Assembly: GCF_010093815.1 (NCBI RefSeq)
Contig: NW_022985555.1
Location: 1,510,170 to 1,574,169, forward strand
DNA length: 64,000 nt
Source: Pseudovirgaria hyperparasitica
Lineage: Eukaryota; Ascomycota; Dothideomycetes; Acrospermales; Acrospermaceae
Direction of reading: 5' to 3'
Shown: in pieces, positions 26,992 through 63,960 of the stretch
How the letters are laid out: each line of letters starts with the position of its first letter
Numbering within the stretch: position 1 is the stretch's first letter
Program-made: the position numbers and the translations under genes
The notes under the pieces: generated by a model
The model's database searches: none
What the model was told of the DNA's origin: nothing
What the model saw: only the letters and a program-made list of their open reading frames with translations

Positions 26992-29900
26992 TTATACATC
27001 GCGCACATGCGTCGCCGTGTGCAGCTTGCTCGGCACGTATTGGCTACTGCGCGTGCTCATCGCGCTTTGGCGTCCGTTCTGGATATTCAGCCGGGCGCCC
27101 AACGGCGTGACACGACCCGGGGAGTGCGAGTCGTCGAAGGACATGCTGCGCGACGACGGCGCGCCAGACGGACCGCGTGAGTGGCCGCCGCGGGCATCAG
27201 GCGACGACTGGCGAGTGCGTTTGAGCATCGGGCGTGCGACAGCGATGCTCTCGTTGTCGCTATCCCAAGTCTCCGGGGTGAGGTGACCGAAGTTCTGGCG
27301 CGAGGAGGAGGGACCTTCGTCGTAGTAGACGGAGGAGAAGGAGGTGGCGCGGGAGCCGTGCTTCATCCAGGCGGGCTTGGGGTGTTCCATCTTGGCCATC
27401 TGCTTGTCGAGCGTAGCGCTGGAGCGGTTGCGCTTCGAGTGCATCTTCTCGGCCAGGTCTGCGCCGTCGGTAACGTCGGGTACCATACGCTCTGGCATGC
27501 CCAGCATCTCGTAGTTGGACTTGCCGATCCAGAGCATCTGCTCGTGCTCGCGCAGGTAGCGGTCGCCGGAGAAGGACTTCTGCACAATCTGCCTCGCCAT
27601 CATGCCGAGCTTGCGGCGATGGTCGCTCTTCTCGTACATGCGGCGGGTGATGATCTCTACGTCCTGAGGTGTTGGCTTGATTGGCAGGATTGGAGCTGGA
27701 TGGGCTGGGTCATCATCAGCGTAGGCTGCCCATTGGTCGATCATGGCGAGCAGATTGATTTGGGCTCGGGCGAGAGCGTAGGCGTCGTTGGGTGCTACAA
27801 CCTCGCTGTAACGCTCATTGTCGTCTGGATCAGTCAAGACGCGAAGGGAAGCACCCACATCGGTACAGACCACAGGCGCACCAGTCAGGGCAGCTTCACC
27901 TAGCGCGAGAGGCAGACCTTCAGACACGGAAGAGTTCAGGAACAGCCATGTGCTTTCCAGCACCATACCGGGATCAGCAGTACCGCGAAGTGTCACCTGA
28001 GTGCCGAGAGCTTTGCAAGCGATAATCTCTTGACACTCCGAAGAGTAGACTGGAGCTTTGTTGAGAGCACCGTAAATGTCCAGCACATAGTCCTTGAACC
28101 CCCATTCATTGGTAATGATGTCTGCGGCGAGAAGAGCAGTCTTGATATCCTTGGCAAACCAGACGTGCGACAACATAGTGACTGTTGGCCTCTTCGTCTT
28201 GATCTCCGAGACTGGCGCGAACTTCTGCATATCGGTAATACCATTGACGATGGGGTCAACCTTGCGCTTGAAGACATTGCGATGAGCGATGGTGCCATTC
28301 GACGTTCCAATCTCGACTTCCCACCCTGGATTAAAGAAATCTGCGCATGGAAGAATCTGATCGGCGTGATGAAGAGTGAGAGTAGACGTAAGCTTCATCA
28401 GACCTAGTAGCGAGTTGCGGATGAAAGGTGGCATGGTACAGAGCGCCGAGGACAAATAGAGGTTTGTCTCACGCCATGAGATAGCATGATCCCAAATCTG
28501 CAATGTACAGTTGCGCTTGATCTTGCATACGATGCCGTAGGACGCAGACACACTGTGGTGAGAGGCCTGGAAGACGGCAGGTATCTGCTCAGGAATTGGG
28601 ATCGAGAAGATGAACAAATAACGGAACCACAGGTCCAAGGCAGTCTCAAGATGACCTAGAGTTGGCAGCTCAGTATCGAACCACTCATTTGGAGGTTTGG
28701 CGTTTGGCATGTCGTCCGCGAGCCACAGGTTGCGCCAGGCTTCCTTGACAATGTCGCTTGTCCAGACCTGAGTCCAGTGGCGCGAGTCCTGGAAATAGGT
28801 ATTGAGATTCACAAGAGCACGGGTCGCTTGCTTGAGGTCGGCCTGGGTCATGTTGATTGCTCTAGCACCCCTTACAAGAGCTGTCAGAGTGGGTATGAAG
28901 TTTTGCTTGATATCATCTGCGGTAGCGCTCTTGAAAAGATGATCGACCTCGCTGTCTAGTTTGTTGGAGAACATGCCATGCTGGGGATGCAGAAAGTCCA
29001 GACCCCAGAGAGGAATGATCTTGAGAGACTCTACGTTTTCTTCGGTCTGATGCTTCGGTAGACCAAAGTCGTTCGCAGACTCGACAACCATGTGCCAGCG
29101 GATGGTCTTCAGATTGTTGATCAAATCTCTGCGGCAAGCAGAGACACCGCCACCCTCGTTGGGCCAAGTACCGGTATCGACAGCGATGACGTGCAGGGTA
29201 TCGTCATTGTCTGGCTGCAGATGCTTTGTTCGCGTATAGATCACAGCATCACCACCTTGTCCGAAGCTGAAGAGGTCACTCAAGCGGATAGCAAGGGGTG
29301 TCCAGGCACTGATATCGGTCGTGAGTTCTGCGCTAGCCATGACTGCATCAGCATGGAGTGCAAGATAGTCCTCAGCGCGGGCAAGGTTGCACATGTTTCG
29401 TGCCTTCCAGTAAGGTCGCAGAAGGGAATCGCCACGAAGTAGTTGTTCATCCATCCAGCGAACGACTACTCCATCGATATCTCGCCGCTTCTTCCAAGCC
29501 TTCCACAATTGCGAGCGTGCTCTAGACGTAGATACCGGAATACGACGCTCATTGAGTCTGAGCACCCGGCTGATAACACCATAGTTGAGTGAGCTGAAGT
29601 CAAACAGAGGATTGTCGTCAATGAAGGTTGAGTTCGAGGGCTTCTTCAACACCCCGAGCCAATCGTGTTTGATCATCGGAGGGGTATCGATGAAGTGTCC
29701 GTTCAATTTGGTAGTGACCGTGGGGTGGAATTTGTGGTCGTAAAGCCAGCTACATTCAAACACGTCGGCACCCTGCACGAAAGTTGCTTCGTGAACCCTT
29801 GTATGAGGTATCCAACGCTCAAGCTTCTCGGGATGACGAACCGGCGCAGCGCACCAGCTGACACTACAAGACATGTGCGGAAGAACAAAGTCGGCTCGCA

Positions 29901-32900
29901 GCAACTCATCATCGTACTTGGCGTTTTTCCGGTAATGGTATTTGAATCTGACAAGATTGCCGTCGAGCATGTATGTACCGGACTCGATGTGACCTTTGTA
30001 ATTGTACTGGACTACAGCACCTTCCTGCTTACCTCGGATGCAAGTTCTGGACATTGGTATCTTGGTATTGGCCAGAGCGCCGAATTTGGTAAGACGACGT
30101 GCTTTGCGGTCTGAGGGATAGTCGTAGATGTACTCATTTTCCATCTCGCCTTTGACAAACTCTGTTCGAGAATAGAGACGCATGTCTTTCGAAAAGGTAC
30201 TGATCCGTGTCGAGCCAGTCTCGGGCTCCGTCTTCAATGTGCCATTGTAAAAATGCAGCTTAAAGCCCTCATTCGCCGCACGATGAATAAACGCCGTGCT
30301 AGTGGTGTCAAGATATTGTATATTTAACCGATTCTTCATAACGGAAATCTTGGTGCCCTTGATATTATTCGAGAGAAGCTTGAGATCTCTGCGGCGGTGG
30401 AACACAAACCACGCGATCGAAATCGATTGAACGAAATGCGAGTATCGCCACATCAATGTCAAGAGAAATGTGACGACAGTGCGGACTGGTTTTGGCTTTC
30501 CGGTCAGGATGCAGTTTAGTTCTCGATGGTATTCCGGATCGGCAATGGTTGCAAGGACAAAAAACTTGATCCATATACCGATACTATGGTACAAGTGGGC
30601 GAACGGTCTCTTGATGGCTGATCCAATTGCCAACAGGAGGGACTTTACAGATCGCGACGGTTTCTTGTCCTGGTAGTAGTGGATATCAGCAGTCTGTTGC
30701 TGGTACGCCTTCTCATTCATCGCCATAGGGCCTTGAGTGCGGAAGTAGTTGTAGCGTTGGACTGAGAATAGCGCACCCAGGTCGTATCGAGCAATACGAG
30801 TCGAGAGCGAACATCCTTCTTCTGCAGAGACGTTATGCTCGATCCAGTACATGTGATCAGCTGTAATCACCGTCGCTTCACCTAAGCAACGAGACAGGAA
30901 TGCAAGCCTCATGGTGAGAGGTAGCTCATCCCAAGCGGTTTCACAGTCTACACCCAAAGACAGATGCCTGAGGAGATCCTTGCGTGAAGCCAACGCGAAC
31001 GCTTCCATCTTCGACTCCGAGAATTCAAACGGCATGGCGCGCTTGACTGCTTCAGAGACTTGGTAGTTGCCGCTGTCGTGAGTACTGCACGTAAGAATTG
31101 ATTCGGCGATCAAGGCTTGATCGTGCGTCAACCCAAATACAGATTCGGCACATGCATGCATCAATGTCTCTGCAATAGCGCGACAGTTGCTGCTCACGTT
31201 TAGCGGATTGTTGATATCATCCGAGTCGGACGCAATTAGTAGCTCGAGGGTGCCCTCAGAGAAACAACTAATAGCCCGGATGTCTGCCTCTGCCTTGACC
31301 ACTGAACGCATAGAGACAAGTTCGATGGATATTGTACCAGCTTCCCACGCCGACACGATGCGGTGTGCGAGATACGGCGCAGTGGGGAAAGCATCCAAAG
31401 CAATACGAGACAGCGCATTCTGGTCACATGACAGCAAAATAGACTTGATCTCAGTCCCAGGATAGCCACTCGAGTGAATGCTGAAAGTCTCTGCTGTTTC
31501 ACTGTTCTTGATGGCATCGTAGAAAGCCTCGAGCTCACTCTGACTCCATTCGTGGTTGACACCGACACCACCATAGTGGTGGAACTTCCGTTGCTTTTGG
31601 GAAAGTTTTGGCTTTAGAGATCTTGGTAGTCCGATCTTTGCAGTGTGAATAGACAGGATGGCGGCTGTCCAAGTACAAATGCCAAGAGCAATAACGTCGT
31701 TCCACACATCACCGGCGTTGAAACGCTTGAGAAGTAGTCCTAGGGGGAGACCAATGCCCACAGCGAAAAGAAGGGGATGAATGACATGTGGGCCGGAGAA
31801 GATCTTGTTGTACTGGTAAAGCAACAGGCCAGTGTAAGCAGCCACGTACGACAAGAACATCTTGAGTGCGAGCTCTGTGCCGTTGAAGATCCAGATGAGA
31901 GCAGCGGTGACGCCCAAAGACCAGACGTGCACACCGAGGAATCGGAACAGGGTGGTCCAGTACATTCTTTGTTTGAACTTCGCATCGTTGACAATAGCTT
32001 CGTGTATGTACTTTGTGGAGCGGATCGAGATGGGACTGCTCTGAGCGGCGGCCTGGTGGAGATGCTGCGCTTTGTAGTCCAAGAGGACAGCTCCAACAAG
32101 ATAGTATGCTAGACCGAATCCTACAGCGACGCGATAGGAAGTGTTAAAGCTCGCACCGAGAATGCCATTGATTGGCTGGCCACTGAGAAGAGTGACCCAT
32201 CGATCCAACAAGGCCACGAGGAAATATAGCAAGCCACAACCAACTTCATCACCAGCGTTTCTCCAATGAATGAAGGAGTTGTGCAGTCTGATTCCCTTCT
32301 GGTTTTGTTGCAAACTGTCGTAGGCGACTTGTGTTTCCAAGTTCCAGGTCGAGCTGTAAGGGATCGGGCGCTTCACATCAGACAAACGACAATACCAGTT
32401 CAAGAGGAAGATTGTTGAATCCCAGCATTCGGCAAGTTCGCGCACAAGCTTGTCAGCTTCGCTCTTCTGCCAAAACTTTCGGTTCTTCTCCTTCATCACA
32501 GCGTTGTAGAGATGGGCACGACATAGTGCAAGGATGGCTGGTTGGCTGAGACCGTCGAGCGTGTCTTCCTTGCCATTCTGCTTCTCGCGGATGTACCAAG
32601 CTTTGACGGCAGCATCGTCCACACATTTGATGTGATTGCACCAATCGACCCAGCGTGAACCAACCCATCTGGTCCCGAGAAGGAGGAAAAACACAAATAT
32701 AAACATGACCACCAGGTAAATGATCACATCATGATCGGGAATCCACATGGTAATGATGGGAGCAATAAGCAAGGTCGGAATCAGGTAGATAATAACATAG
32801 CGCCCATTGAGGAATGACGATCCGGGAAATTGGTATGTCGAAAGCACGGCCAGGATTGATAGATATGCTGTGAATCCCACAAGATAGAAGAAGAAAACGG

Positions 32901-35883
32901 CACCAATCTGTGGAGACTTGACACCACTAAGAATGACGAATCCGAGGATACCACCAGCAAAAGTAAAGGCGAGACCACCCACAAGACGAGTGATCACGAA
33001 CATGTTTGCAGCTGAGAAGGCCATGGAGATGAGATAGTAGGTTCCACCAATAGAAATCCAGGTACCAATTACACCGGAAAGAAGTAGAGATATCATGAGA
33101 GCGAGTGTAGCATATTGCGATTCTTCGTGAGTCATAAAGGCACTCAAGTACAGTCCTCTTCCAACGCAGGTGAGCAGAATGATGTCGACCAGTGCGGGAA
33201 TGGCGAAAACACTAAGAAACGTGAATCTGCGGTACGCTGGCATCAGTGCATCCTTTTGATCCGGATCAATATCAGTTTGTGCTGCAGCATAAGCAGAAGC
33301 GAATGCTGGAGCGTTGTCGATCCACATTGGCGGCTGGTTCTCGGCTTTGTTGTAGTGAAGTCGATGGCGATCCGACAAGAGTCGACCAAACATACTTGGG
33401 GCCACATCGAAGTAGGTCTCACAGCGCGAACCAAGTGCGAAGAGCTCGGCGAAAGCTGCGCTCTGGTCCGAGAACTCGTTGAAGAGAGGGTTGCGGTCTG
33501 AGACTTCGAGATAGACTTCATCAAAGGCGGCCTTCCTCGCGGCGCAGAAGACACAGAAGAGGACAAAGTCGGAGCAATAGTCCAGGATATCGTCTGCGGT
33601 AAGACTCACCAGGCTCTTGGTAACAACCTCCAGCTTGTCGTGGTCACAAGTGTGAAGGATGCGTTGCCACTCGGCCTCTACATCGCGGAACACCTGTAGA
33701 GCGTATCCATTGTCAAAGACACCACGGTGATGCTGACGATACCAATCCATACGGACTTCGACAAGCTCTTCATCGGAGATGGTGCCGTTGATGTACTCAA
33801 AATTGGAGACATGCTTGAGTTGCTTGTACGACGGAATGTCGATGAGGACTTCTCGACAAGATCGCTGCAACGAGCTCAACAGCGGACAAGAGTGGTCCCA
33901 TTCCGAGAAGCGTAAATGCTGCATGAAAAGAAGGACATCGGTGGGAGAGAGGAGTGCGATATCTTGCTCGATGCGCGGCGGGAGTTTGTCAAGCAAATGA
34001 AGCCCGGAATCAAACTGGCTGCGCGCATACTCAGCGAGAAAGCACTGATAGCGTTGGAACGAGCGATGACTCAGATATGTATGTAGAACGGTGCCTGTGA
34101 GGTCTGTAGCATTTTTGGAGACATAGATGATGAGAGCACCACTGCGCTGGTCGATTTCAAAGACAGACCAGAACTGAGCGCCAGAGGGCGTTCTGAAGCC
34201 AGAATCCAGTCCCAGATAGACCTGAATCGGGTCCTCAAAGTCCTGCTCGCCCTGACATTTCCCGCCGAGAGAGCTGAAGTCGTTGATGGCTTGCCGGAGA
34301 AATTGCGGCATCTGCGGACCTCTGTTGTTGGTGTTGTTGGCAAGTGGCCGCAGCCCCGACCCCATCTCTCTCAGCCGCTCCGACGGAACACGATTCAACA
34401 GTCCGAGAGTCCGCAAACGCTGCTGCGATCCGAGAATCTGTATGAAGTCGTCGCGAGTAACGTCCATTCCGACGGGAAAACACCCCGCTCCGTCGTGTGC
34501 TGCACCTGTCGGAGAATATGACAGCGGGTTATTAGGGCTTCGCTGCATATGCTCTGTCCACTCGTGCCCGGTGCGACCGTCGGCATAGGGGAAAAGGGCC
34601 CAGCTCGCGTCTCCATCACCTCCTTGCACTGTCAATGTTGACGCACTGGAGCTGTTTAGAGGGCTCTGAATAGAGGACTCGCGCGCCACTCTGAGCAGGT
34701 CGGCCACGCTGGGGAAGATGGTGCTAAGGCTCTCGTACTCTGGCGCAAGCTGAAAGTCCACAGCATCCAGGTTGCGAGTCGACCGCAGTGTCTCGTGGAT
34801 TTTCATCACTCGGTTCTCCTTTAGCCACTGGAAAGATGCGATTGGATCCGTTTTGGGCACATTTTCAACAGCGTTTGTCAAAGCCGATTCCGAACCGATC
34901 CAGACCAATGCACCATGGTAGCCGCACCACATGAAGGATCGCTTCACAACAGCATGCGACAGCGCAATATCGTTTCGGACTGTTTCCCACATCATGACTG
35001 TGAATGGCCGTAGGCAAGCTTGGGCAACAAATGCCTTTGTCGTTGTCTTCATCTTGTCCATGTCGAAGAAATCTCGACGCTCGCCATCCTCCAAGATCGT
35101 GGCGTTTCTGACGACGACTCCGGAAAAGTGCTCGAGCTTCGGGGCTCGCTGGCCTTCAAGAAAGTTCGGTGGTGCAATTTCCAGATACGTCTTCAGGCCA
35201 AGTCCTTCCAGAAGTTCACCCAGCGCGTTCAAGAATGGAGTAGGAACAATGCCCTCCCAGCCTGCCACAAGAATCCCTTGGAAGTTGTTACCCTTCCGGC
35301 CGAACATGGACTCGATCTTCCTGACTATGTCATCAATTGTTTTAATCATCACGGCTGATTGCAAGAGGTCAGTGTTGTTTATGACCATCCGCACGTCCAA
35401 GCGGCCAACCAGCTGGACATGGTCGGATTTTTGCTCTAGCCGGATCGCGTCCAGCACCCCTTGCTGTGTTGGGTCCAAGATGACTATATCCCATTGTGAG
35501 AATATCCGACTTTGAGCTGCGGTTGGCGGCGAGGAAAAGGCTCCAAGGTAAACGCCAAAGGAGGACGGCTTCGACGACAGAACAACGCTACCTAGGGGAT
35601 GGGTCTCTTGGGCGACTTGTCGAAGATGTTTCAAGACATCAGTTGGCAGTACGGTCAGGGTGGTGTCTCTCTATGGCAGTGTCAGGTAGCTTCTTCACAA
35701 CAACGACAGCTGACAAACCTTGAGGTATCTTGCCAACCATCGAATGAAGGTCAGTAATATGTTTACAGAACCAATTAGAACACAGGCTCCAATAATTGCT
35801 ACGAGGACTATCTGCCACCAGTGCTTGAGCAATCCATCGCTAGCGAAAGCACTGATTGTCAAAATCTCTGGGCTTTGCACCAT
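26992..35883 (-). CDS. gt4C: Gt4C, giant membrane galactosaminogalactan synthase (GT4)
   Basis: Two exons, 35883-35719 and 35670-26992, with a 48-bp intron (GTTTGT to CATAG), giving 2947 aa. In Aspergillus the GAG cluster has one large GT4 transmembrane protein thought to polymerise Gal/GalNAc and probably export the chain. Exon 1 supplies an N-terminal membrane helix (WWQIVLVAIIGACVLIGSV). Residues about 80-380 resemble a TIM-barrel hydrolase (GVYLGAFSSPP, WDIVILDP, FQGILVAGWEG). Membrane helices cluster at about 865-1060 and 1190-1395, with more near 1755-1815. Between about 1830 and 2200 lies a beta-rich region with GTYMLDGNLVRF. The GT4 domain starts near 2216 with TGTWPNEGGGVSACRRDLI, as in PelF, and carries the EX7E motif SEGLPLALGEAA (Glu2639, Glu2647). 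A Ser/Arg-rich tail follows. It is divergent from agd3. Confidence 0.92.
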
Positions 35884-38800
35884 ATTGACTGTGAAAGGGC
35901 GTGAGCGTGGCTCTACGAGCCTTGCTGAGAGAGGGCCAGGACGTTGGGTAAAGCCCAGTCGTAGCTGGGGTTTTCTAACGATTATAGAAGGTCGGTATGG
36001 CGGGTATCAGGAATAGACAAAGCTCTCGGGTATGCGGAGGGGTAATGGACAGCACGGGAGCAAGGATTAATGGTGAATGAGGGAGTGAATAGTAATGAGG
36101 GTAAAGAAGAGGAGGCCGAGGTGGTGGTGAGGGAAGAAAATGATATGAAAGATGTACAAGGCGGTATGTTCCAATTCCAAAAGTGATCAACCTCTACGGA
36201 ATGGAGAGGATAAACACAAAACTCAGTGATTGTGACATGTAGACATGTCGGAACGTGGCACGCGTCTGGGAGCAAGGTGAGCAGTAGTGAAGAATGGCCA
36301 AGGAAGCAAATGATGGATATGATAGCTACTAAGGCAGAGGCGAAGTGGGAAAGCTAATTAGTTAGATCTTGGGCAACACATTGTGTCATAGCACGGGCCC
36401 TGAAGCAGTGGATGTTGAACTGAACCCAGAGCACAAGCCCAGAGTCAAAGAAAGGGAAAAGGGTATGGAAGGGGGAAGGGGAAGGGTGGAAGAGTGGAAG
36501 GGTGTAGAGAGAGGCTAACGATTGCGGGCACGGCACAGAGCAAGCAGAGCAAAAGGCAGAGGGGCCCGTAGCGAGTCGGGCCCACCAAAGCATGTCGCCA
36601 TGGCATGCCCAGACATCGAAGCGCCAGGGGACTGTTACCGCCTGAAAGTGGATGCTCAGTAAGTTACAGTGCATTAATAATGATGATAGAAAAGAAAATG
36701 CACGGAAGACGGGCATGACGGCCGAAGAACAATATGTGCCTGTTCTTGTGACAGATCTGTGCTGTGCCCCCCGGTACGAACACGGACGCCTGATAATAAG
36801 ATGTAGTCTATCGATACGCCACGACTGGGGGATTCATGTGGTAGGACTATGGACGATGGAGTATGGACTATGGAGTGAAGCACTGTCTGACACGCAGTTG
36901 GGTCCCCTCTCTCGTGTTTTCATGTCAGCGCCCCAAGAGACCGGCCTAAACGGTGCTGACAGGGACTAAAGTTAGTATAGAGTAGCATATTCGTGAAGAG
37001 CCTTATGCCGGCCCTTCCGCCTCCCCCTGTCCTAGTCCCTTGCCCTTGTTCATTCTTTGGTGTCTGGGCGTCAGTCTGAGGTTTCCTCGAGCGCGGCTAA
37101 ACCTCAATCAATAGCGCAGCATGTGGGGATCGTAGACCCTATCGCATGAGGGCAAGGCTCATCCAATCTGGCTTAAGTCTCGAGCCGACGTCTACTATAT
37201 GTTATGTGCAATGAACGGTTACAGTCTTCCTACACCCTCAGACTGACGGGCTGGCTGGCTGACTAGCTGGCTGCAGCTGCACCTGAAACTCGAATGATTG
37301 ACCCGACAGCCCCCAAAACGTTTGTCGCCTCGTCCCGATGCCGGCGGTGGTTCGCGATCGGCGCTGAAAGAAGGGAGCATTTAAGAATGGGAAAACAATA
37401 GCGACAGTGACGGTAGTGGTATAGTGATGAGTAAAGAAATGTAGAAGAATCTCCTTGTTAACAGAAAGAGGGAGAGTGTGTACATACTCGCAAGCGGGTC
37501 ACTCGTATTCGTCATTCATCAGTCGTCATTCGTTCTTTGTCCATGGCGGAACCGAACTCGTGTATTTTTGTTTTCAAAACAGGCATCTTTCTACTGGCTC
37601 GGATGTTTCAGCCATGCAGCAGCATACCCCTCCCCCTCCCCTGCCCCATACACTACACTTGACCTCTGCTTACTCTTCTCTTTGTGGTCTAGCCGCGGGC
37701 TCGTCCACAGCCACTGCTCATTGCCCACTTCTCGAACGAACCCTTCGCTTCTTTAGTGCTGACAGCTGGCACACTTTGAAAGGGGGGAGGGGAGGGGGCT
37801 GAAGAGAAAGCTCCCGTTCTATCCGTATCATCCGTTACATACTCTTCACCGCCCATTCCTTTCATACAATACTCAGCTGCTGCTTTCCGTACCGTACAAG
37901 GTTACAGCGCATCCCATACCCACAAAACCATAATATGTACGCATCCCAACCCTTCATACAACCAAAACAATACATCATTACCTCCACCAATGTCTTTCTC
38001 TGCCTTTGTCTGCATGCAACACACGCAGGCTGGTTTCTCCGCTGGCTTACCGTACATGCAGTTCCACATGAACGCTCACAGTCTACGGAGTGGCCACTTA
38101 GGCAGTCGGACAGGTCCTGGTATCAGCATCGTCATCGAGATCATCACCAGGACCAACGACCGGGGCAGCACATCTACCGCCTCCGTCGTGAACGGTGAAC
38201 GCCTCGATATCATGAGACCACGATTTCTGACAGCGCGAGAGGCGCCGTTTGAGTCACAGCTTTTGATGTTTCTTCGCTTGATACTCCCTGTATGTGTGCC
38301 TTTGACGTGCGCACTCACTGATATTGATCAAATGACACCTTTCAGCCATGCCACGATGGTTGTCCTCGTGCCTGCTCATGGAGTCGTGTGGTGTCAGCCG
38401 TTCCATTTTGCATGATACAAGCATTGCTTATTCCTGGCCATTCTGCTTTCTCGGGTCGAACGCCAGCGGTCTGGTCGGTGATACGAGCCATGCGTAGCAC
38501 TTGGCTCAATAATGGTACTATGTATACGGCAAGTAGACGACAGCACACAATGCAGATGCACGTCGTGAACATTGGATGCATCGCTCTCAAGCTTTTCCGC
38601 CCTATGCATTTCAACAGGCATATATCCCGTCCCGTCTACATAATGCTAATACCCAATACCGAGACACGTCGTCCGTTACTTGTTACTATGCTTTTGATGA
38701 TATGTCAGATACGCCCAGACGGCGATTCATGTGCTGAGAAATACGCCACCTGCTGTGTACTATACACTCCCGTTCATCATATCAACCAACTATTCAAGCC

Positions 38801-46394: not shown

Positions 46395-49300
46395 GCTTCA
46401 ATCCGCACTTTCTGGCATGAATAATCTTCCTGACATGCTTCGTTCGCTTCATGTACCTATCTCCCTCTAACTCTCTAAACCTTTCTATCTTTCATCACAT
46501 TTCCGTTTGTACACCTGCTCAAAAGCATCAGCAGCAGTACCATCAGCATAGTATAGCATAGCATAGCATCAACGGGGAATTCCGGGGTTCGGCGCTGAGG
46601 ATATGGCTTGCGGTCCCGATATCAAACTGTTCTATATACCCCCTATGATCTATTCTCTCGAAGATCCATACCTCCTTTGAATGAATATAATTCTGATTTT
46701 TCCTCAATATCTATCACCCGTTATCTCGAGACTCTGTACGTTGCGAAATCGGCTGCAGGAGACTTTCCATATCTTTCCTGTCGTGTTCATATACATGGGC
46801 CATCTCACCATGTTCTATGCTATGTCACGCTTCAAATATCAAATCTCACAGCACGTCCCTCCATGTCTCATTTCACCACACTCCCTCTACCTCTTCACAC
46901 TCTCCTTTATTAACATCTAGCCTCATCTACGCTCATTCGAGAACATCCACATCTACAGCCACATTTCTCTCACCCCTCCCTCCCCCTCCCCCCTTCAACT
47001 TTCGTCCTTTGTTCTTCGCGCTTCTCGAACAATATACGTACCATGGTTCATGTGACAGGACTAGCTTCAATATACACGTACAACGCACGTGCGATGGCCA
47101 CAAATAGCCACGCCATAAGGGGGTATGAGTCTGGATGCAAGTATGAATAGTCTACCAGAAAGCATATCCAGTGCCATGTTGAGGCGTGTGGCGTACGTGG
47201 CTAAAGCATGCAACGTGTGGCGCGTCATGTGGAATGTGGCACGTGGCGCGAGGTGGAAATTACCGATGACCTCACTAGTAGTCCGGAGCACGGCCCGGAT
47301 GACGGACATGAGGGGAGGGAAGGTGCAAAAGCCCGGTTCCGACGTTCGAGTTTCTCGTCGTCGTTGTTTCAATAATTTGGGCTGCGACTGGGCGATTGGG
47401 AGGGCCTGAGAGGTGGGTGGTTGATGGTTGTGTGGTTGTATGGCCGTCTGGAATGAACGCATGGATCGATCGATCGATGGGTCAGTCGAACAACTACTCC
47501 CGAAGTCTACCGCTTCAAAGTTCGCACCCAGAGTTCGAAAATCGAACATCTTCGGCAACGCATCTCGCATTACCAGGTACACCAGACCACACTACTCATC
47601 CATCGCACCAGATTTCGATACCGACGCTACACGGCACTTTGCATCGCGTTGATCCAGTCTTTCACCCCGCTCTCCCACTGCTGTTTCGCTGAGATCGATC
47701 GCGATCCAGCGGCTCTGCGGCTGTTGGTCGGTAGATGTACCGTGCCATGTGGTCGGGACGAGCGGCTGTCTTTACAGAGGGAGTTTGGGAGAGAGGAGGC
47801 GAGCTAGAATAAGGGATGTGGATTTATGGGATCTGGTAATGGTGTGGGGTTTTGCTGGATGCGTACGTATGTTTGGATGGTACGATGCGACTGGTCGATC
47901 GGAGTAGGGAAGATCTCTCGTTGTGGAATTCTTCCGACTCAGAATGTAGGTAACTACCGTTCTGCCAGCAGTCTAGTATGATGCACCGCGAACAGGAACG
48001 ACGGCAGGCAAGCAGAGAGGCAGGGGATCGATGATACAACACTATCTGATCATCAAAAAATGTCTCCTCTGCACTCGTGCTGTAGAATACACACAAAGGG
48101 GGGTCCAAGGTCCACCGTTGAATTGATTCCAGGTGTACAACAACCAAGTTTTGGCACACTGTGTCTTCGGTTAGCACGCTGACCTGATACCAGCATGATG
48201 ATAAACCCAAACCCCACCTGAACTCACATCCGACCGAAATTTGAAGTTGAGATCATCAAGGAGCACAACACAGCCTGGTTGTGGATGATACGTACACCAC
48301 TGTCCTCGATGATCCCATCTTAGAACATGCTAATCAACGTTGCACGCATACACGACGCACCACCCGTTCAGCTCGGCCGATCCATCACCATCCCCCCTTC
48401 TAGAGCTCGCTTGCCCACCACAAAGTAGCACCATGACACTTATTCTCCGTCTGTGTATCCTAAGCCACATTTACGACAGACCAGAAGCACACAACAGGCC
48501 GGACGCGTACAGCGTCAAGTACGAGAACCCGAGCACGAACCATGTACCTCTTAAAGGGGGAATTCGCGTGCATGCTAAGAATCGGTACCTGAACTAACCC
48601 ACTATTGACTCACTAAATGATTACTTAACTAACAAACGAGCATTCGACGGCCTGAGGTTAAGGCATATAGTTTCAAGCTAGAGGGTAGGAAGTTCTCTTT
48701 TTTTGCGCTTGACGGTTCGACTGGATGAATAGCATGAACACTTGCTCCCGCGGGAATTAATTGGCCGTGTGGTAGGGCGTTGGATTTCGGCCTTGTTTTC
48801 TCTTCTCATCTTTCCTTGTCGGTGAGTTGGGAGTCCTGACTTTGTTGTTATCTTGTGGAGATTACACAGACGCAGATGAATGGTTCATTTGGCGATCGAT
48901 GTACTTCGTAGATATCCCGTGCTTTGCGTGTGTTTTGTGTTATGCTCTGCCGGAGCGAGTTCGAGATATGATTGACTCTTCCTACAATTCATACACAATG
49001 AAGGCCACGGCGGGCTGCGAGCGGCGACGTCCAATGTTCAACACACCCAAAGCACGATATTCACATGCATCAATGCATGCGCGCATACAAATAGTACATG
49101 CAGACATACATCTATGCAGGTAGGCAAAGCAAGCGCCAATAGTCGCGCGCGCCACGCAGCATTATAGCAAAGCCACCAATCCCGCTTCCACCTACTTCTG
49201 CCAACTTGTCAATTAGTTCTGCGCGAAACGCCCCCTACGGACCTATAGCATTAATGCATCGTCTGCCTTTTTAACCTTCAGTACGATACATCTGACAAGA

Positions 49301-52300
49301 ACGGTTTGCATGTGCTTGCATATGAGATACGGCCTGCATGCGACGAGCCTGATGGGATCTCGCTTCGTGTTGTGTCCAATGCTGCAGTTCCGATCTTGTA
49401 ACGTGCAGGAGTACCATTTCTGGATCAGCGCAGAGCCGCGATGCTGTGCCGCCGGCCAAGTTGACTTATCGATAGGTTGACGATCCAGCTGCCAGGCGCA
49501 CGGCACCGATCTGATTATGAGGGTGTTGCCATGCACAATGACTGTACTCCCAAGCACAAACGTACACGATACATTCTCGTGTTTTCTGCTGACGTACTTG
49601 CCGTGCCGCCCACAGCTTGATCAGGCCATTACGGATACCGATTCCGTCAATATCGGATTTTGCATATTCGCTTCTCAGGGCATAAGGGCGTCGGAAGTAC
49701 AATACATGGCTTGCGCACCCAAGAGGCGTGGGAAAGCCATGCTCATAATGGCAAGACCTCAATGCTCCGCCTGTGGAATACAAGCGCATCGCAAATGCAA
49801 CTGAGTCACGACTCGACCGCAGGCCGTCGTCGTTGACGTGTACATACATATCTGGCTAAGCCTGAGGCAGAACTGCTGAGCCTCGGCGACCTTGTTCTAG
49901 CTTCCCCCCGGTCCCCTGGCATGGCATGGATGTGATGTCGTAGCAATAAGATCTCCCGGCTATTATGATATTCTCCGGTGTGGTACGCTGCGCTTATGTG
50001 CATTCTCGTATTCATCCCAAAATGCATGCATAAATACATATGTATACAGTCCATTGCGCCGGGGCGGGGGCGGTCTCTCTCACTCGAGTCACAGCTCATT
50101 GCATGGCATTCGCATCGCATCGCAGCTCACGCCCACGAGCAATACTCTTGCATAGCACGGTTCTCCTTTCCCGCCCCCGGCACCCCCAATCCACGCATTT
50201 CAGCTCACCAGGCCCTCCATTTATCACGACGTCGGGTACTACGGTAAGCACGCATAAAGTAAAGGCTCGTTTCAATGCGAACGAAGACAAAATCTCAGCA
50301 ACGCCATTGTGCCATGCCATACAACGTACCAACACTCATGCCATGATGCCATGCCACGCCCACAGCCGCAACGCACGCACACCACAGACACGAGCGAAGA
50401 ACACAGATCCGAGAGAGTTGAAGCACGCAATCGCTTACACTCATCATCAACACATGGCACAATTCGCCGCCCCATTTCCCCCTCCTCCCTCCCAACAGTG
50501 CCACGATGCTGTGATGCGTATGCCCTCGTATATGCTACGCCCGCGTGGCACACAATAACCTGTAGTATCACATCGCGTGCGCGTTCAATACTCAAACCGC
50601 CCCCGGGTACATGCTACGTACTGTGTGTATGTATGTATCGGACAATATAATTCCACGCACGACACGGCACGGCACGGCAAGCGAGCGCCGCAGCACGCTC
50701 TGAGTTGGTCTGTATGCTGACGCCAAGGGTGTCCGTGGGCATGTTTGTGTAGGTATCTATTTCATCGAAGCGACGGCGAGGGGAAGGGGGCTGATTACTA
50801 TGTGCAAGAGGGATTAGATGAATCAATGGATGGATGAGGCGGCATTTAATCGGGTCGGGGATGTCTTTGAGGAAGGCAGATGTTGGATAGAGGGACAGGT
50901 AGACACGTAGACAAGTGACAGACAGATGACAGACAGATAGACACGGCGAACGTGGAGAAGAACGGAAGGAAGGCAGGAAGGATGCTCGATCATGCATGTA
51001 TGTACCAAGGTTTGTATGCAAAAATTTTGCTTGCTTGCATGGCATGTCATATGTACAGTTGGGCAAGCGGGTTACTAATTAGATGAGATTCTGGGGGAAC
51101 GCCGATGCGGTGTTTGTATATCCTGTACTTGGGCTCACTCTCGTCCACAGCGAAATCTTGCAAGCGGCAGGGACAGGCATGCAATACTTTCTTTCGAAGC
51201 TTCCCTCCTGCTGGATTCTCGAGCGAGATCCGCCCGTGCTGACTTCTGGTGGGTTCCTTGGGCAGGGCCAGGTTCCAAGACGGCGCTGGAATCCCGAGGG
51301 CGGGTGACACCGCAGCAAGGAGTCAATATTGGAAACATAATACGCGCAAGTTGCAGATTCCTGGTATTAGTGGTGTTTGTTGAAGAGATCGGGCTGCGAT
51401 CTGGTGTGGATCTCGATGTGGGTGTGGAATGAATGAGTGCATCCATGGCGTGTGTTTGCATGGGCGTCGCGCGCTGCTGGGTCTCTCTCTCTCTCTCTAT
51501 CTCGCTGGTCCACTCCTCTGCATGATGACCAACTATGAGCACCACTGGGCCTGGCACTGGCACCACCACATGAACGGATGTTATTTGTGAGAATGTGGTC
51601 TAGTCGCTTTGGTGTTAGGCTCAGGGCAGTCGATTTAGAGTTGCTGATCATGGCTGGCGAGGCGCTGGCTGATTCATTGCTTTGACGGGCGCCAAACTAT
51701 GCTTCCCCTCGCAGCATTAGGGCCTTCTTGCATCCCTCCGCTCTACTACCACCCCCCCCTCCCCCTACATTCTCTACCCCTTGCCTCGCGTCCCTCGGAA
51801 ACATCAGGGTGGCCCCTGTTCGAGCCTGTGTGGGGAGCATCGCTCACCCTTGTAAAGAATGTTTTCGCGGTTTCCATCAAACACTGACCTGGCGAATCTT
51901 CTTGGCGACCACTTTCGTCCTTCTTTCCGTACCGTTTCTATCCTCGGCTCGAGACCCATGTGGTGCATCGTCTTGTCCGTCTAACCGCTATCGGAAGAAT
52001 GCAGTCCATTTCTTGCTTCATCGGGCAGTCATATGGAAGACCGTGGAGAAAACTTTGCAAGAGGTGCATAGTAATAACCAGGTCCCAAATCTCACATTTC
52101 CAGGGTGTGTACATCATGTCGTGTTCTTGTCGGCTAAAGGCTGACCATCTCGTCATTTTCGACTTCGATGTCGCTTTCACATTGAGTTTATGCGAGTCAC
52201 GGAATCTCTTCAAACAATAGCCAAGCCACAGTCGGTAACCGGGTAATCTATTCAGATCGGTACTCTTTGTCTAAACAGGGACGCCCTCCTAGGAACTTGC

Positions 52301-52334
52301 TAATCACCTCCACACAACATTTGCATACCCGGTT
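46395..52334. other. 5.9-kb gap between ega3 and sph3
   Basis: The largest empty interval inside the GAG cluster. Simple repeats are frequent: ATAGC units near 46547-46568, CATGC/CGCAC words near 50300-50400, CGGCA units near 50664-50684, GACAGACAGAT near 50917-50940, and a CT run near 51484-51498. Open frames (up to 172 codons) follow these repeats and have no recognised domain. Base composition stays ordinary, so this is not the RIP-degraded type seen at the right edge. Confidence 0.45.
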
Positions 52335-53372
52335 TCAGCGTAGACCACGAATGCTAGACAGCAAGGCTACATATTCTCCAAATTGCGGACTGAAGCTTTG
52401 ATAATAGGCTGAGTCTAGGGATGTCAAGAAAACATGACCTGTCAGTAGCTGCAAGTGATCGGCCAAACATTTTAGCGATTCTTCGGTGATATCTGGCAAA
52501 GAGTGGACTAGTGATACCAGGTTGCGCTTGTTGTAGTTCAAATCATCAAGCTGATGCGAGATTCCCATCTCCATCCAGGCTGAATAGGTTTGCTCAAAGA
52601 CGACTGTCAGATCTGCATATGCCATGTACCGCTGGTCAGGAATATAGCCGGGATTGTGCACTGCTGCTTTGTGAGCACTCAAACCACGCAGTCGATTCTC
52701 AAGCGCGCATTTTCAATCTGCACATGCGACAGCGTGCTGGTGGTACATGCTGACCCACGAAGCCTGTGAAATAGATTGACTGACCAACAAAACTCTCTCC
52801 GAAGCCGTCTGACTCTTGTACGGCAGTAGAGACAGCTTGCATGTACGCATCGGCGTTTGCATCGTAGTGAGTAGGTGTCTCGTCGAAAAAGACGCCGTCC
52901 ATGGTCATGTTCGCACTCTTCTCCGCCCAGGCGGCGTACATGGCAATCTCAGCCAGAGTGAGATCCAGGGCTTTGCTTCCATAGTCGGTGGCGACGTAGC
53001 CTAGAGTCCGAACGTTGTCAAACTCATTCAACTTTGGAATCTCTCGTGTATAGTTCGCGTCTGGTAGCGCGCTGCTGCCAGGACCCTAGATTGGCTGACT
53101 TAAGTAACATTACAGAGGTGCATTGGGGCCGCGGCCCACACACACAGGGGGGAGGGGGTGCCGCACTCACGGAATGAGGGTTGACCACCACGGTAAAATC
53201 CAGGTCAGGATACTGCCAGGCGCTGCGTACCATATATCGTCAGTGTCATCCGCCCAAACAATAGCCTGAAGCTGGAGGGTAGATTGAAACCATACGCTTG
53301 GTACAACTGGTCCCACGCTCCGGGGTTGGGATAAATGTATAGCGGAACAAAAACAGATGGAGGAGGCGCCAT
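52335..53372 (-). CDS. sph3: Sph3, GH135 galactosaminogalactan hydrolase (spherulin-4 family)
   Basis: Four exons: 53372-53296, 53222-53171, 53085-52785 and 52663-52335, giving 252 aa. Sph3 cleaves acetylated GAG and is required for GAG production in Aspergillus. Motifs across the exons: MAPPPSVFVPLYIYPNPGAW, then PDLDFTVVVNPHS joined to GPGSSALPDANYTREIPKLN, NVRTLGYVATDYG, DGVFFDETP (Asp106) and TVVFEQTYSAW (Glu167). These acids fit the family's active-site positions. The start is the first ATG and gives the usual MAP...VPLYIYP opening; a GTG-only frame lies upstream. No signal peptide or anchor is visible, whereas the A. fumigatus enzyme, as I recall, has an N-terminal membrane segment. The third intron (121 bp) is the least certain; its acceptor is CAGCAG at 52661-52666, so one Ala may be added. 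Confidence 0.87.
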
Positions 53373-54165
53373 GATGACCAGCGACCGGCCGCAAAGTAAC
53401 CATTCGAAGTCAGTGATGTCTTTGGCGGCAGTGATAGACACTCACTTACTACCTAGTGATGTACGAGTAAGAAATGCAAAGTCTGACCGGATAATTGATG
53501 TCGGACTAGACCGAAGTGGGACCGACCAGTTAAAGCGAGGGCGCGTGCGCCGTTTCAAGATATCGTTCAGCACGAAAGGGGCTAATACGTGCTATAGACC
53601 ACCTTTCAAGCGGGTACCGTTCAACGCGAGGTAAAAAGTAGCAACTCTGTTGATTGATCCAGAATCTAGATGCTGATATTCAGCTTATAACCGGGTCGAT
53701 TCGAAGGCAGCTAGGATTGTCGGATCAGCTATTCTGCCAGACTATTCTGGGATGGAGGTTCCGAGTTACAAATTGTTTTTTAATTCAAACGGAACGTGAA
53801 GCGCAGATGCCAAGTAAATAAAGCCACAAGAATAATAGCCCAGTCGGCCTGTGACCTGTGACTAGGGGGGAGGGGGGCTCTAGTCAGTGAATGCTTGCGA
53901 GCCCCCTGGTGGAGAGGGTCGAATTCCAGTCCAGCCAGGACTGTTTTGACAGCCTGCCACAATTCCATTCCATCGCCTACCTACTTGATGGTCCATGCAA
54001 CATCCGATGCAAGCACGCTATTACCGCGCGAACGACAGAATCCAAACCGTGAATACTCTTGCTGCGGAGCGATGCGGCAAGAATATTGAATGCTCGCTCT
54101 GACGCTGCCACTGTGCCTGTTCCCGTCCGGGTGCCTGTGCGTTGGTACAACATCACACTTTTTAG

Positions 54166-54197
<32 letters not shown>

Positions 54198-54382
54198 CCT
54201 GTCCTCATCCGCACTACCTTTGCCTACATCAGCCCATATACAGAACATCGTTCCTCCAACCTCTATCTTGCAACCGTAAATCCTTGCATTCTCTCGGGGT
54301 CCCAGCAATATCAGTCTTTTCCATACCTTTCGCCATATTCTCTACGGCCGATAGCCTCAAGAATTTCCTGGTCGTCCTATTA
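53373..54382. promoter_or_regulatory. Divergent promoter region between sph3 and uge3
   Basis: 1.0 kb between two divergent GAG genes. The uge3 side has a long TA run, then a pyrimidine-rich leader (about 54200-54300). Open frames extend into this region from uge3 but contain the TA run and lack family similarity, so I treat them as leader sequence. Confidence 0.6.
54167..54196. repeat. (TA)15 microsatellite in the uge3 promoter
   Basis: Thirty bases of uninterrupted TA, 187 bp upstream of the uge3 ATG, at a place where a TATA element would be expected. It may serve as the TATA region. Its length could vary by slippage. Confidence 0.9.
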
Positions 54383-55753
54383 ATGGCTACCTACACCTTG
54401 TCCGGTGCATCGTCTCCGGCTCGATCGCTATCCTCTTTGTCCATTTCCAGTGACGGAGACGTCGGCACACCAGATACTCAACGGTCTGTGATTTTTGATG
54501 AAGACGACGCGATCACTGACCCTCTCGATGTCGAGACTGATAACCGGAATTATATTTTGGTCGTTGGAGGACTTGGATACATAGGATCCCATACCACCCT
54601 CGAGCTTCTCAAGGCCAACTATAACGTCATCGTAGTCGACGACTTGAGCAACTCATATCGCGATGTACTGGACCGGGTTTCACATTTGGCTTCTGTCCAC
54701 TTCAAGGCCTGCGGGTTACCAATGCCAGCACTCAGATTTCACAATTCCGACTACCGCGCTCCGACAATGCGTGCTCTTCTCTCGAGTTATGGATCGTATA
54801 TGGTAGCCGATAACTCTAGCGGAGAGCAGACATTGAAGCAGGTGTCAAGAATCACTGGCGTTATCCACTTCGCAGCTTTCAAATCCGTCGAGGAGAGTAT
54901 CCAGAAGCCCCTGGCGTATTACATGAACAATGTGTGCGGCATGGTTGACTTCCTTGCTCTTCTACAGGAGTTCGGTATCCAAAACTTCGTCTTTTCCTCT
55001 TCAGCAACTGTGTACGGCGAGGCCGCAAATAGGGGAGTACCGCTAAAGGAAGAGCACATGGTCTTGCATACCGAAACCTATCTCAACGACTCCGGTTTCG
55101 AACAGACTCAAAGCCCCGGGTCCATGGGGTTGACTTCGCCTTACGGACGGTCCAAGTATATGTGCGAAGCAATCCTGGCAGATATTGCCAAAGCTGATCC
55201 TTCGTGGAAAATCACAGCTCTGCGATATTTCAACCCTGTTGGGTGTCACAGCTCCGGGCTTCTGGGCGAAGACCCACGACAAAAGCCAACCAATTTGATT
55301 CCAGTCGTAGCAACTGTTCTTACTGGTCAGAGACCCGTTCTGAGCGTCTTTGGAACTGACTGGGAGACCTCAGACGGTACTGCTGTTCGGGACTTCATCC
55401 ACGTGCAAGACCTCGCACGAGGGCACATCGCCGCATTGGCCGCTTCTGCGAATGGTGTAGTGAAAGAACCATACAGAGCCTACAACCTGGGAACAGGACA
55501 TGGCCACAGCGTCCGAGAGGTTGTTGCTAGCCTTGAGAACGCATCCAGTCGACATATTCCCGTGCAAGAAGTTGGCCGCCGGGCGGGTGACGTTGGCTCA
55601 TGTGTTGCTCGAGTTGACAGAGCTGAGCGTGAGCTCAGCTGGAAGGCCGAAAAGACTCTTGCGGACTGTGCGGTCGATGTCTGGAACTTCACAAAGGGTC
55701 GTTGTGAGAAGCCGGTTATCCTACGGACGGATTCCGGCATCGCGATGAAATAA
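54383..55753 (+). CDS. uge3: Uge3, UDP-glucose 4-epimerase of the GAG pathway
   Basis: Single exon, 456 aa. It interconverts UDP-Glc/UDP-Gal and, for the Uge3 type, UDP-GlcNAc/UDP-GalNAc, supplying both GAG precursors in the cytosol. The NAD-binding motif GGLGYIG is at residues 62-68. The catalytic region shows FVFSSSATVYGE and SPYGRSKYMCE (Tyr254, Lys258), followed by ALRYFNPVGCHSSG, AVRDFIHVQDLARGHIAAL and YNLGTGHGHSVREVV. It is longer than housekeeping GalE enzymes (about 340-370 aa) because of a Ser/Thr/Asp-rich N-terminal extension of about 55 residues and a loop near residues 110-150. The ATG at 54383 is the first that does not read through the TA repeat. Adjacency to sph3 and the other GAG genes supports the Uge3 rather than the Leloir role. 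Confidence 0.94.
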   Translation: MATYTLSGASSPARSLSSLSISSDGDVGTPDTQRSVIFDEDDAITDPLDVETDNRNYILVVGGLGYIGSHTTLELLKANYNVIVVDDLSNSYRDVLDRVSHLASVHFKACGLPMPALRFHNSDYRAPTMRALLSSYGSYMVADNSSGEQTLKQVSRITGVIHFAAFKSVEESIQKPLAYYMNNVCGMVDFLALLQEFGIQNFVFSSSATVYGEAANRGVPLKEEHMVLHTETYLNDSGFEQTQSPGSMGLTSPYGRSKYMCEAILADIAKADPSWKITALRYFNPVGCHSSGLLGEDPRQKPTNLIPVVATVLTGQRPVLSVFGTDWETSDGTAVRDFIHVQDLARGHIAALAASANGVVKEPYRAYNLGTGHGHSVREVVASLENASSRHIPVQEVGRRAGDVGSCVARVDRAERELSWKAEKTLADCAVDVWNFTKGRCEKPVILRTDSGIAMK

Positions 55754-56677: not shown

Positions 56678-57168
56678 TGATACAGGCACAAAGATCCGAT
56701 GGTCGTGTGGAGGGGATGACAGAACCGTGACTCAATCTACCTTAGTCATTATTTACTAATATAATCCACTACTTTCCGTACCCAAACGCTTGGTATTCCT
56801 TCTGCAAGATCTATTACTCGGCGGGCCTACGGTTCGAGACTTCGAGCTGCACTTAATGGAATTAAAATGTAGTCTAGATGTCCGATACATGATGGAAATG
56901 GAAAAAGGGTTGGGCAGAGGTTTGGGCAAGTCGAGCCAAATGCTTCCATTCTCCATCCATTCACGTGGTAGCACAATTGTTTCAAATAACTTCTGTCCTC
57001 CCTTACCGCTCGTCTGCGTCTTTCTTCTTATACTGCAACAAGCTTTTATCTCATTCTCACCAAACCTCCATCGGTTCCCGTCTCCTGTCAATCCAGAACC
57101 TTTCAACATTGCAAAGCATACCCCCTGTACTAAGCCTTGTATGTGTCGTGCCGACCACCGTCCGTGCC

Positions 57169-63862: not shown

Positions 63863-63960
63863 TAGTTATTTTCTTAATACTAATTAGCTTACTAGTACTA
63901 CTTATTTACTATATACTAATAACTCTTATAGAATAAATAGTATCTAGTATTTTAGCTTCT

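Follow-up and report, generated by a model that had tools for sequence, protein, structure and literature searches.

A probable galactosaminogalactan gene cluster in Pseudovirgaria hyperparasitica and the kinship of its synthase to bacterial PelF

Positions 26992-55753 of the window (the whole stretch of 64,000 nucleotides that we analysed) carry, from first to last, gt4C, agd3, ega3, sph3, and uge3; every gene has matches at the level of its family and a splice-consistent model. Such matches at five genes are not explicable by chance, and we think it very probable that the locus is the five-gene galactosaminogalactan (GAG) cluster of a filamentous ascomycete, working by the mechanism that we propose below. 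The cluster and its wide spacing are ordinary; the fresh point is that the working part of the chain-building enzyme is related to bacterial PelF. This kinship was observed directly, as were the family identity, domain content, order, and spacing of the genes. An earlier note on this DNA had placed all five genes here and named their families. The Pfam matches and gene models bear out the location, and the Pfam and NCBIfam matches and the solved relatives agree on the families.

The GAG synthase and its PelF-like module

The gt4C gene lies on the reverse strand and its model encodes 2947 amino acids, with one 48-bp GT..AG intron (35671-35718). The first exon (35719-35883, with the start codon, ATG, at 35883) encodes a hydrophobic, probably membrane-spanning segment (residues 25-43, hydropathy 2.72), and the second exon (26992-35670, a single open frame of 2892 codons with its stop at 26992) encodes the remainder of the GAG synthase. 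The earlier note had located gt4C correctly but had missed the short first exon and the hydrophobic segment that it bears. The putative orthology of gt4C to Gtb3 rests on its GT4 domain, its membrane segments, and its place in the cluster. In Pfam, Gt4C matches Glyco_trans_1_4 (2.9e-12), and its score for DUF3492 (19 bits) is below that model's own cut-off of 23.3 bits.

Judged by its sequence, Gt4C is homologous to bacterial PelF along a stretch of about 480 residues close to the C-terminal end of the fungal protein. The PelF profile matches residues 2219-2697 of the full model, and this PelF-like GT4 glycosyltransferase module (27745-29181, reverse strand) was recognized by NCBIfam, tblastn, hhalign, and Foldseek. 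In particular, hhalign of the module against 86 bacterial PelF ORFs gave a probability of 99.6% (E = 1.1e-24), and all 9 of the 9 plasmid records that it matched by tblastn are annotated as PelF. The NCBIfam PelF model (NF038011) matches at 1.5e-18 and 67.1 bits, which is under the curated cut-off of 100 bits, so we describe the module as homologous and PelF-like and do not file it as PelF. The GGVS motif and the E-X7-E pair are retained in all rows of the Gt4C/PelF alignment (18 of 18 aligned rows). The GR(I/V)D motif of bacterial PelF is SHVW in the fungal Gt4C, so a usually conserved arginine is absent from Gt4C. Foldseek matches a predicted structure of the module (mean pLDDT 64.5) to GT4 enzymes, though loosely (TM-scores over the query of 0.28-0.49 among the 50 matches listed).

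The PelF of the Pel operon is likewise the GT4 enzyme of an alpha-1,4, GalNAc-rich, deacetylated biofilm polymer, as Gt4C would be, and the two are homologous over these ~480 residues. They differ in their setting: PelF adjoins PelG, whereas here the module lies inside a 2947-aa membrane protein. The fungal GAG synthase was called not yet characterized in 2019 (PMC6753227; published sources are cited here and below from excerpts of their texts). In the literature that we searched, two papers name both Gtb3 and PelF, excerpts of which state no sequence kinship between them, and none names both Gt4c and PelF.

The membrane region of Gt4C (31639-33219, reverse strand) has 12 hydrophobic segments at a threshold of 1.5 and is the likely exporter. 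We found no relatives of this region, and it has no match in plasmid sequences. As its source, the membrane protein of the bacterial operons was rejected (hhalign probability 0.2%, profile E of 5); the controls gave 0.1-1.4% for five shuffles and 0.1% for the reversed sequence, and the use of a single fungal sequence limits the sensitivity of this comparison. Also unsupported was the idea of a GH114- or GH135-like barrel at the N-terminus of Gt4C (first ~340 residues; hhalign probabilities of 0.2% and 0.1%). A single-sequence structure model of 400 Gt4C residues, made for this N-terminal barrel guess, has a pLDDT of 33.

Bacterial operons with Agd3-like proteins

The PelFs nearest to the Gt4C module come from actinobacterial and Deinococcus operons. 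Bacterial exopolysaccharide operons that contain Agd3 have already been reported (Bamford et al., 2020, PMC7229062). We kept the best 80 of 590 loci by similarity to a Deinococcus PelF, found with an alignment that contained Gt4C's own module. Agd3-, GH114-, and spherulin-like genes are all present in 58 of these 80 loci; as the loci were selected by similarity, such operon counts are valid for that sample only. These operons resemble the fungal cluster in their Agd3-, GH114-, and often spherulin-like genes and in their PelF-like glycosyltransferase. In contrast to the fungal cluster, they encode the glycosyltransferase and the membrane protein as separate genes, and the latter has no detectable kinship to the membrane region of Gt4C. 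Another difference is that in one bacterial locus (L002), the nucleotide-sugar gene scores highest as LegB-like (453.6 bits, cut-off 475; the GalE score is 140.7).

The seeds of our iterated bacterial AGD profile included the cluster's own Agd3. A profile made in one round from just two Deinococcus sequences still had matches in 78 of the 84 loci (78 ORFs, E of 2.9e-14 or better), and it matches the cluster's Agd3 at 9.7e-28. The Pfam Agd3 models do not recognize the Agd3-like protein of L002. Pfam's Agd3_CE has a match in three of the four genomes searched, two of them over the cut-off, and has none in the genome of L009. A scan of viral contigs for relatives of Agd3 or Gt4C found none.

We also placed Gt4C in a tree of 59 rows, which comprise Gt4C, 12 of the 80 kept loci, and 46 of 52 PelF matches from plasmid and other genome loci. 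(Six matches were omitted by name, namely L085, L089, L096 twice, L100, and L101, and none for length.) Gt4C has a long end branch (5.6), which makes its placement tentative; the branch is attached between the PelG-type and the Agd3-type PelFs. One tentative reading, which on balance we doubt, makes Gt4C a chimera, in which the PelF-type catalytic enzyme from a bacterial operon with Agd3 may have been combined with a membrane scaffold of ~2,200 residues and of other origin, which would have replaced the separate membrane protein.

The epimerase, the deacetylase, and the GH114 hydrolase

The uge3 gene (54383-55753, forward strand, no intron, 456 aa) encodes a GalE-type 4-epimerase, with matches to Pfam Epimerase (5.8e-41), to NCBIfam galE (335.8 bits, over a cut-off of 262.3 bits), and to solved epimerases in the PDB. 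Within Uge3, RRAGDVGSCVAR aligns with RREGDVAACYAN of 1hzj/1i3k, cysteine on cysteine. We take 1hzj/1i3k to be human GALE, and the aligned cysteine presumably lets that enzyme accept N-acetyl sugars. In 8wow, the PDB entry that Uge3 matches best, this position is valine rather than cysteine. Activity on UDP-Glc and UDP-GlcNAc, as expected of the epimerase of a GAG cluster, is putative for this protein.

The agd3 model (40088-42301, forward strand, 688 aa) has one intron. Exon 1 (40088-40569) encodes a start that by eye resembles a signal peptide (hydropathy 1.51) and the beginning of CBM87, and exon 2 (40717-42301) encodes the remaining CBM87, the CE18 deacetylase domain, and the C-terminal domain. 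Agd3 matches CBM87_Agd3 (7.6e-55) and Agd3_CE (3.4e-180) in Pfam, as well as PDB entry 6nwz (E = 9e-203), and it has all three of these domains behind its putative signal sequence.

The ega3 model (45286-46394, forward strand, 349 aa) also has one intron. Exon 1 (45286-45918) encodes a hydrophobic segment (residues 31-49, hydropathy 2.94), which is a candidate N-terminal membrane segment, and the beginning of GH114; exon 2 (45978-46394) encodes the remaining GH114. The two exons match Glyco_hydro_114 at 1.8e-42 and 1.2e-29, and the protein matches PDB entry 6ojb (E = 9.6e-88). The catalytic Asp/Glu motifs of GH114 (DPDNVDGY and NEQC) are retained in the alignment to 6ojb/6oj1.

Sph3 and its missing membrane anchor

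The sph3 model (53372-52335, reverse strand, 252 aa) has three introns. Exon 1 (53296-53372) begins right at the catalytic domain, and we found no leader; exon 2 (53171-53222) follows in the gene model, and exons 3 (52785-53085) and 4 (52335-52663) contain the FFDETP and VVFE motifs, respectively. Pfam's Spherulin4 matches at 6e-31 and 2e-18, while the short first stretch alone matches at 1.2e-5 and 25.4 bits, below the cut-off of 30.2. The joined model matches PDB entry 5c5g (E = 3.5e-69, residues 1-247 aligned) and retains both motifs, and from this alignment the GH135 catalytic domain is judged complete. The earlier note had called the genes intact. This holds for four of them and for the catalytic domain of sph3, but we did not find the N-terminal membrane anchor of Sph3.

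The cluster might be something less than a full GAG pathway: if sph3 has lost its anchor exon, then Sph3 would not be delivered outside the cell, and the chains would be unprocessed or unmade. The Sph3 of A. fumigatus is described as membrane-bound and essential (PMC12054363), and here the model opens at the catalytic domain with no hydrophobic segment in its first 80 residues (0.43). Among the upstream exons that could be joined in frame, just one has a hydrophobic stretch of at least 1.6, and it would depend on a weak donor site (GTTTGA) and on an intron of 350 bp. However, Sph3 retains an intact domain with its catalytic motifs, and we saw no decay in the remaining four genes of the cluster. 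The Sph3 homologues of the bacterial operons are leaderless too (a hydrophobic leader in 0 of 70 ORFs). Also, the upstream candidate, ORF 53783-53980, has no Pfam match but scores positively in the dicodon test (0.119), and sph3 may therefore have an anchor exon after all. Overall, we consider a broken pathway unlikely and still favor a working GAG pathway.

Spacing of the genes

The divergent gt4C and agd3 are 4204 bp apart, start to start (35884-40087); agd3 and ega3 are 2984 bp apart (42302-45285); and the convergent ega3 and sph3 are 5940 bp apart, stop to stop (46395-52334). We found no recognizable gene in these three gaps, whose sizes agree with the 3.0, 4.2, and 5.9 kb given in the earlier note. 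The divergent sph3 and uge3 are separated by 1010 bp, start to start (53373-54382).

It had also been claimed that the gaps hold no other coding gene. That is right insofar as no Pfam cut-off is reached by any of the gap ORFs that we scanned (30 of the 112 with a length of 60 or more codons). (Taking the gaps in cluster order, we scanned 10 of 30, 7 of 28, 12 of 47, and, between sph3 and uge3, 1 of 7.) Four weak matches below the cut-offs were to GAF_3, ADD_DNMT3, Alpha_adaptin_C, and DUF3903. The window has no tRNA or Rfam matches. In a dicodon test against a background of coding sequence read out of frame and from the reverse strand, 13 of the 162 ORFs with 50 or more codons in the gaps scored above 0.05, so small lineage-specific genes may be present.

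A second possibility is that the cluster is unusual and that its genes were spread apart in this lineage, for instance through decayed transposons or extended regulatory regions. A block at 61.5-64 kb, 5.7 kb past uge3, bears a strong signature of repeat-induced point mutation. But the base composition of the gaps resembles that of the window outside this block, the gaps hold short tandem repeats only, and the 30 of 112 gap ORFs that were scanned contain no transposon domain. Furthermore, the cluster of Neurospora crassa is about equally long (its six genes are given a length of 30 kb in print; PMC11356417), so the 29-kb span here is not unusual. Such an expansion is quite improbable, and we view the spacing as ordinary for a GAG cluster.

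Comparison with known GAG clusters

The earlier note held that neither the cluster in this lineage nor its spacing could be cited. Besides the published length of the N. crassa cluster, a query of more than 250 genomes had by 2016 listed a GAG cluster for 28 species (PMC4817252). Gene deletions tie the cluster to GAG production in Metarhizium (PMC8224951) and in Neurospora (PMC11356417). That study took a GAG cluster to be a single locus with a glycosyltransferase, an epimerase, a deacetylase, and a hydrolase and/or spherulin gene (PMC4817252), and all of the gene types required in Pezizomycotina are together here.

The gene order was expected to be that of A. fumigatus, and it is: gtb3-agd3-ega3-sph3-uge3 agrees with the published locus tags (07860 for gtb3, 07890 for ega3, 07900 for sph3, and 07910 for uge3; PMC4817252), with a published gene list in the same order (PMC6753227), and with the adjacency of agd3 and ega3 (PMC7229062). 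(Order alone was compared.) The A. fumigatus cluster, where the synthase is gtb3/gt4c, also shares the five families, the three-domain plan of Agd3, GH114, the GH135 domain, and the GalE-type epimerase, and differs in the membrane anchor of sph3, which we did not find here. The N. crassa cluster (NCU05132-05137) shares the five families, the total length, and a GH114 protein with a membrane segment. It differs in its order, which by locus number is synthase, epimerase, small gene, GH135, GH114, and deacetylase, and in the extra small gene (NCU05134). Sites that fit the StuA-type consensus show no enrichment in the window (46 sites versus 57.9 expected).

Finally, it is highly improbable that the five genes are chance neighbors without a single pathway and that gt4C is a different large glycosyltransferase, for despite gaps of 3-6 kb and a gene that is poorly conserved among fungi (28% for MrGtb versus Gtb3, PMC8224951), five GAG-specific families lie in the published order inside 29 kb, and the closest bacterial relatives found for the module adjoin Agd3-, GH114-, and spherulin-like genes (the 58 of 80 kept loci mentioned above).

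Proposed mechanism and implications

We propose that Uge3 would form UDP-galactose and UDP-GalNAc in the cytosol and that the PelF-like GT4 module of Gt4C, on the cytosolic side, would join the sugars of these nucleotides into an alpha-1,4 chain. The chain would exit the cell via Gt4C's own membrane region. Secreted Agd3 would then strip acetyl groups to give a positively charged polymer that sticks to hyphae and surfaces, while membrane-anchored Ega3 would cleave deacetylated stretches and Sph3 would cleave acetylated ones. For the enzyme activities and the sidedness of these steps we draw on published work on relatives, as we do for the structure of the polymer, its secretion, its adhesion, and the co-regulation of the genes. 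By the same analogy, a deacetylated GAG-like polymer is the expected product, as the earlier note had predicted.

The locus would thus be one further ascomycete member of the known distribution of GAG clusters, and the predicted adhesive, deacetylated polymer is testable by lectin staining. With the link between Gt4C and PelF, both the catalytic residues and the direction of transfer can be put to the test. If Gt4C is indeed a chimera, then Sph3, whose model lacks a leader just as its bacterial counterparts do, would act on the cytosolic face, and the first step of GAG synthesis would have been inherited from bacteria, with export reinvented in fungi.

Evidence for the five galactosaminogalactan genes

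An earlier note had placed a complete galactosaminogalactan (GAG) cluster at 26992-55753, and all five genes (gt4C, agd3, ega3, sph3, and uge3) are borne out by a Pfam match for each and, for all but gt4C, by solved relatives. Agd3 has its CBM87, CE18, and C-terminal domains spread across two exons and matches PDB 6nwz (E = 9e-203). The GH114 domain of Ega3 is split between two exons, keeps the DPDNVDGY and NEQC motifs, and matches 6ojb (E = 9.6e-88). Sph3 matches Spherulin4 in three stretches, keeps FFDETP and VVFE, and matches 5c5g (E = 3.5e-69). Gt4C, the predicted GAG synthase, has a GT4 glycosyltransferase domain near the end of a 2892-codon open frame; the whole frame, searched alone against the PDB at E 0.001, gave no match. 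Uge3 is a GalE-type epimerase (Pfam; NCBIfam galE, 335.8 bits, cut-off 262.3), and its solved relatives are UDP-glucose 4-epimerases. It has a Cys that aligns with the Cys of RREGDVAACYAN in 1hzj and 1i3k, which we take to be human GALE; the corresponding residue of the best match, 8wow, is Val. Presumably, this position decides the acceptance of N-acetylated sugars.

By analogy with published models (PMC4817252, PMC6753227, and PMC12054363), Uge3 would make UDP-Gal and UDP-GalNAc, Gt4C (also named Gtb3) would polymerize and export the chain, Agd3 would deacetylate it outside the cell, and Ega3 and Sph3 would cut it.

Judged by its sequence, the locus is another GAG cluster of an already known type. 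The earlier note could cite neither the cluster in this lineage nor its spacing; such clusters are published in other ascomycetes. Lee et al. (2016; PMC4817252) queried more than 250 genomes and report the cluster, for the most part in synteny, from 28 species; the A. fumigatus locus tags given there show the same order as in the window for the four genes compared. Two other papers, on Metarhizium (Mei et al., 2021; PMC8224951) and on Neurospora (Chatrath et al., 2024; PMC11356417), link the cluster to GAG production. Chatrath et al. give a length of 30 kb for the Neurospora cluster, so the 28.8 kb span in the window is ordinary, and the spacing is ordinary too.

Gene models, gaps, and neighborhood

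A splice-consistent model was obtained for each gene. gt4C and sph3 are on the minus strand and agd3, ega3, and uge3 are on the plus strand; agd3 and ega3 have one intron each, sph3 has three, and uge3 has none. The agd3 and ega3 introns had several in-frame options, and we chose those that preserve the alignment to solved relatives. In gt4C, an added first exon (start codon at 35883) contributes a strong hydrophobic segment and gives a protein of 2947 amino acids.

In these models, the gaps (in the order gt4C, agd3, ega3, sph3, uge3) are 4204, 2984, 5940, and 1010 bp, and they contain 112 ORFs that are 60 codons or longer. A Pfam scan of 30 of these (mostly the longest, plus a few with good dicodon scores) gave no match at cut-off and four weak matches under it. 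A dicodon test, for which nine coding stretches of the window served as the training set, gave scores above 0.05 for 6/44, 4/38, 2/70, and 1/10 of the ORFs of 50 codons or longer, gap by gap. So, the claim that no other coding gene lies in the gaps holds for recognizable genes; a small lineage-specific gene may be present. There were no tRNA or Rfam matches within the window.

Downstream of uge3, at 57514-58608, is a Fungal_trans (transcription factor) domain just below cut-off (5.3e-5, 22.9 bits, cut-off 23), with a putative upstream exon near 57134-57417 and, upstream of the domain, a Cys-rich stretch that looks zinc-cluster-like by eye and has no Pfam match. Further on, the block at 61500-64000 is AT-rich (GC 0.19-0.31) and shows a strong repeat-induced point mutation signature (TpA/ApT 1.4-2.3; (CpA+TpG)/(ApC+GpT) 0.03-0.11); it has 18/36-bp tandem repeats at 63676-63864. 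On the other side, a HET-C heterokaryon incompatibility protein (4.3e-135) is encoded at 18710-20602, 6.4 kb past the gt4C stop codon.

Bacterial operons with Agd3-like proteins

The best plasmid matches of the catalytic module of Gt4C (the PelF-like GT4 part near its C-terminus; PelF is the glycosyltransferase of the bacterial Pel operon) come from operons with further genes for Agd3-like proteins and GH114 and, in Streptomyces, spherulin-4. Operons of this kind are already known: Bamford et al. (2020; PMC7229062) describe bacterial agd3 operons in which agd3 is accompanied by GH114, glycosyltransferase, and membrane protein genes, with spherulin genes in some, and they favor horizontal transfer. 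Scanning bacterial genomes gave 590 confirmed loci (596 candidates). Among the best 80 of the 590, PelF and a membrane protein were present in all 80, an Agd3-like protein in 77, a spherulin-like protein in 69, and GH114 in 63; 58 of the 80 had all five genes, as did 56 of the 67 loci of at least 21 kb. The actinobacterial Agd3-like proteins were matched by profiles built here, and the Pfam Agd3 models gave nothing above cut-offs in the cases tried. Profiles of bacterial sequences match four window proteins and the catalytic module of Gt4C. The window Agd3 is also matched by a profile free of window sequence (9.7e-28); the Uge3 match is to the broad SDR family and says little.

A Kocuria rosea plasmid (L133, 5690-12395) has a compact set of Agd3-like, PelF, membrane, spherulin-4, and GH114 genes, flanked on both sides by genes for the same transposase protein. 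On a Paenarthrobacter aurescens TC1 plasmid (L132, 7986-11693), a divergent PelF-like gene adjoins a separate integral membrane protein gene and lies close to an annotated galE; in the PelF tree it has a long branch and groups with rows of the type associated with PelG, which stands beside PelF in Pel operons.

The window sph3 model begins at the catalytic domain; when we looked upstream for an exon that could encode an anchor, a single weak candidate emerged. In the bacterial operons (loci L001-L084), a hydrophobic stretch of at least 1.6 within 60 residues N-terminal to the domain was found for 0/70 spherulin ORFs, versus 61/80 Agd3-like and 34/64 GH114 ORFs. This difference between the spherulin and Agd3-like ORFs suggests that the leaderless spherulin-4 beside Agd3-type PelFs is a cytosolic enzyme of an exopolysaccharide operon. 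Since ORF starts were set mechanically, the parallel with the fungal Sph3 is no more than suggestive.

The synthase and PelF

The best NCBIfam match of Gt4C is PelF (1.5e-18; 67.1 bits, below the cut-off of 100). All 9 plasmid records matched by the catalytic module were matched within an annotated pelF, and a profile built from 86 PelF ORFs of bacteria aligns with the module at an hhalign probability of 99.6% (E = 1.1e-24). GGVS and the E-X7-E pair are kept in 18/18 rows of an alignment of the module with 17 bacterial PelFs, in which the bacterial GR(I/V)D motif is SHVW in Gt4C. A structure predicted from this alignment (mean pLDDT 64.5) resembles MshA, BshA, and other retaining GT4 enzymes; the similarity is modest, the 50 matches listed having TM-scores of 0.28-0.49 when computed over the query. 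The available text of the literature that we searched contains no statement of sequence kinship between the fungal synthase and PelF.

For the part of Gt4C that precedes the module, roughly 2,200 residues, there were no relatives by sequence in Pfam, NCBIfam, or the PDB at the thresholds used (one NCBIfam match, E = 0.19, is at chance level). A structure predicted for 400 of these residues from the single sequence was of no use (pLDDT 33). The membrane region of Gt4C had no detectable kinship with the separate membrane protein of the bacterial operons. In a tree of 59 PelF rows (52 different), Gt4C has a branch length of 5.6 and lies between the PelG-associated and the Agd3-associated PelFs, so no direction of transfer is supported. 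The chief interest of the cluster is the make-up and origin of its synthase.
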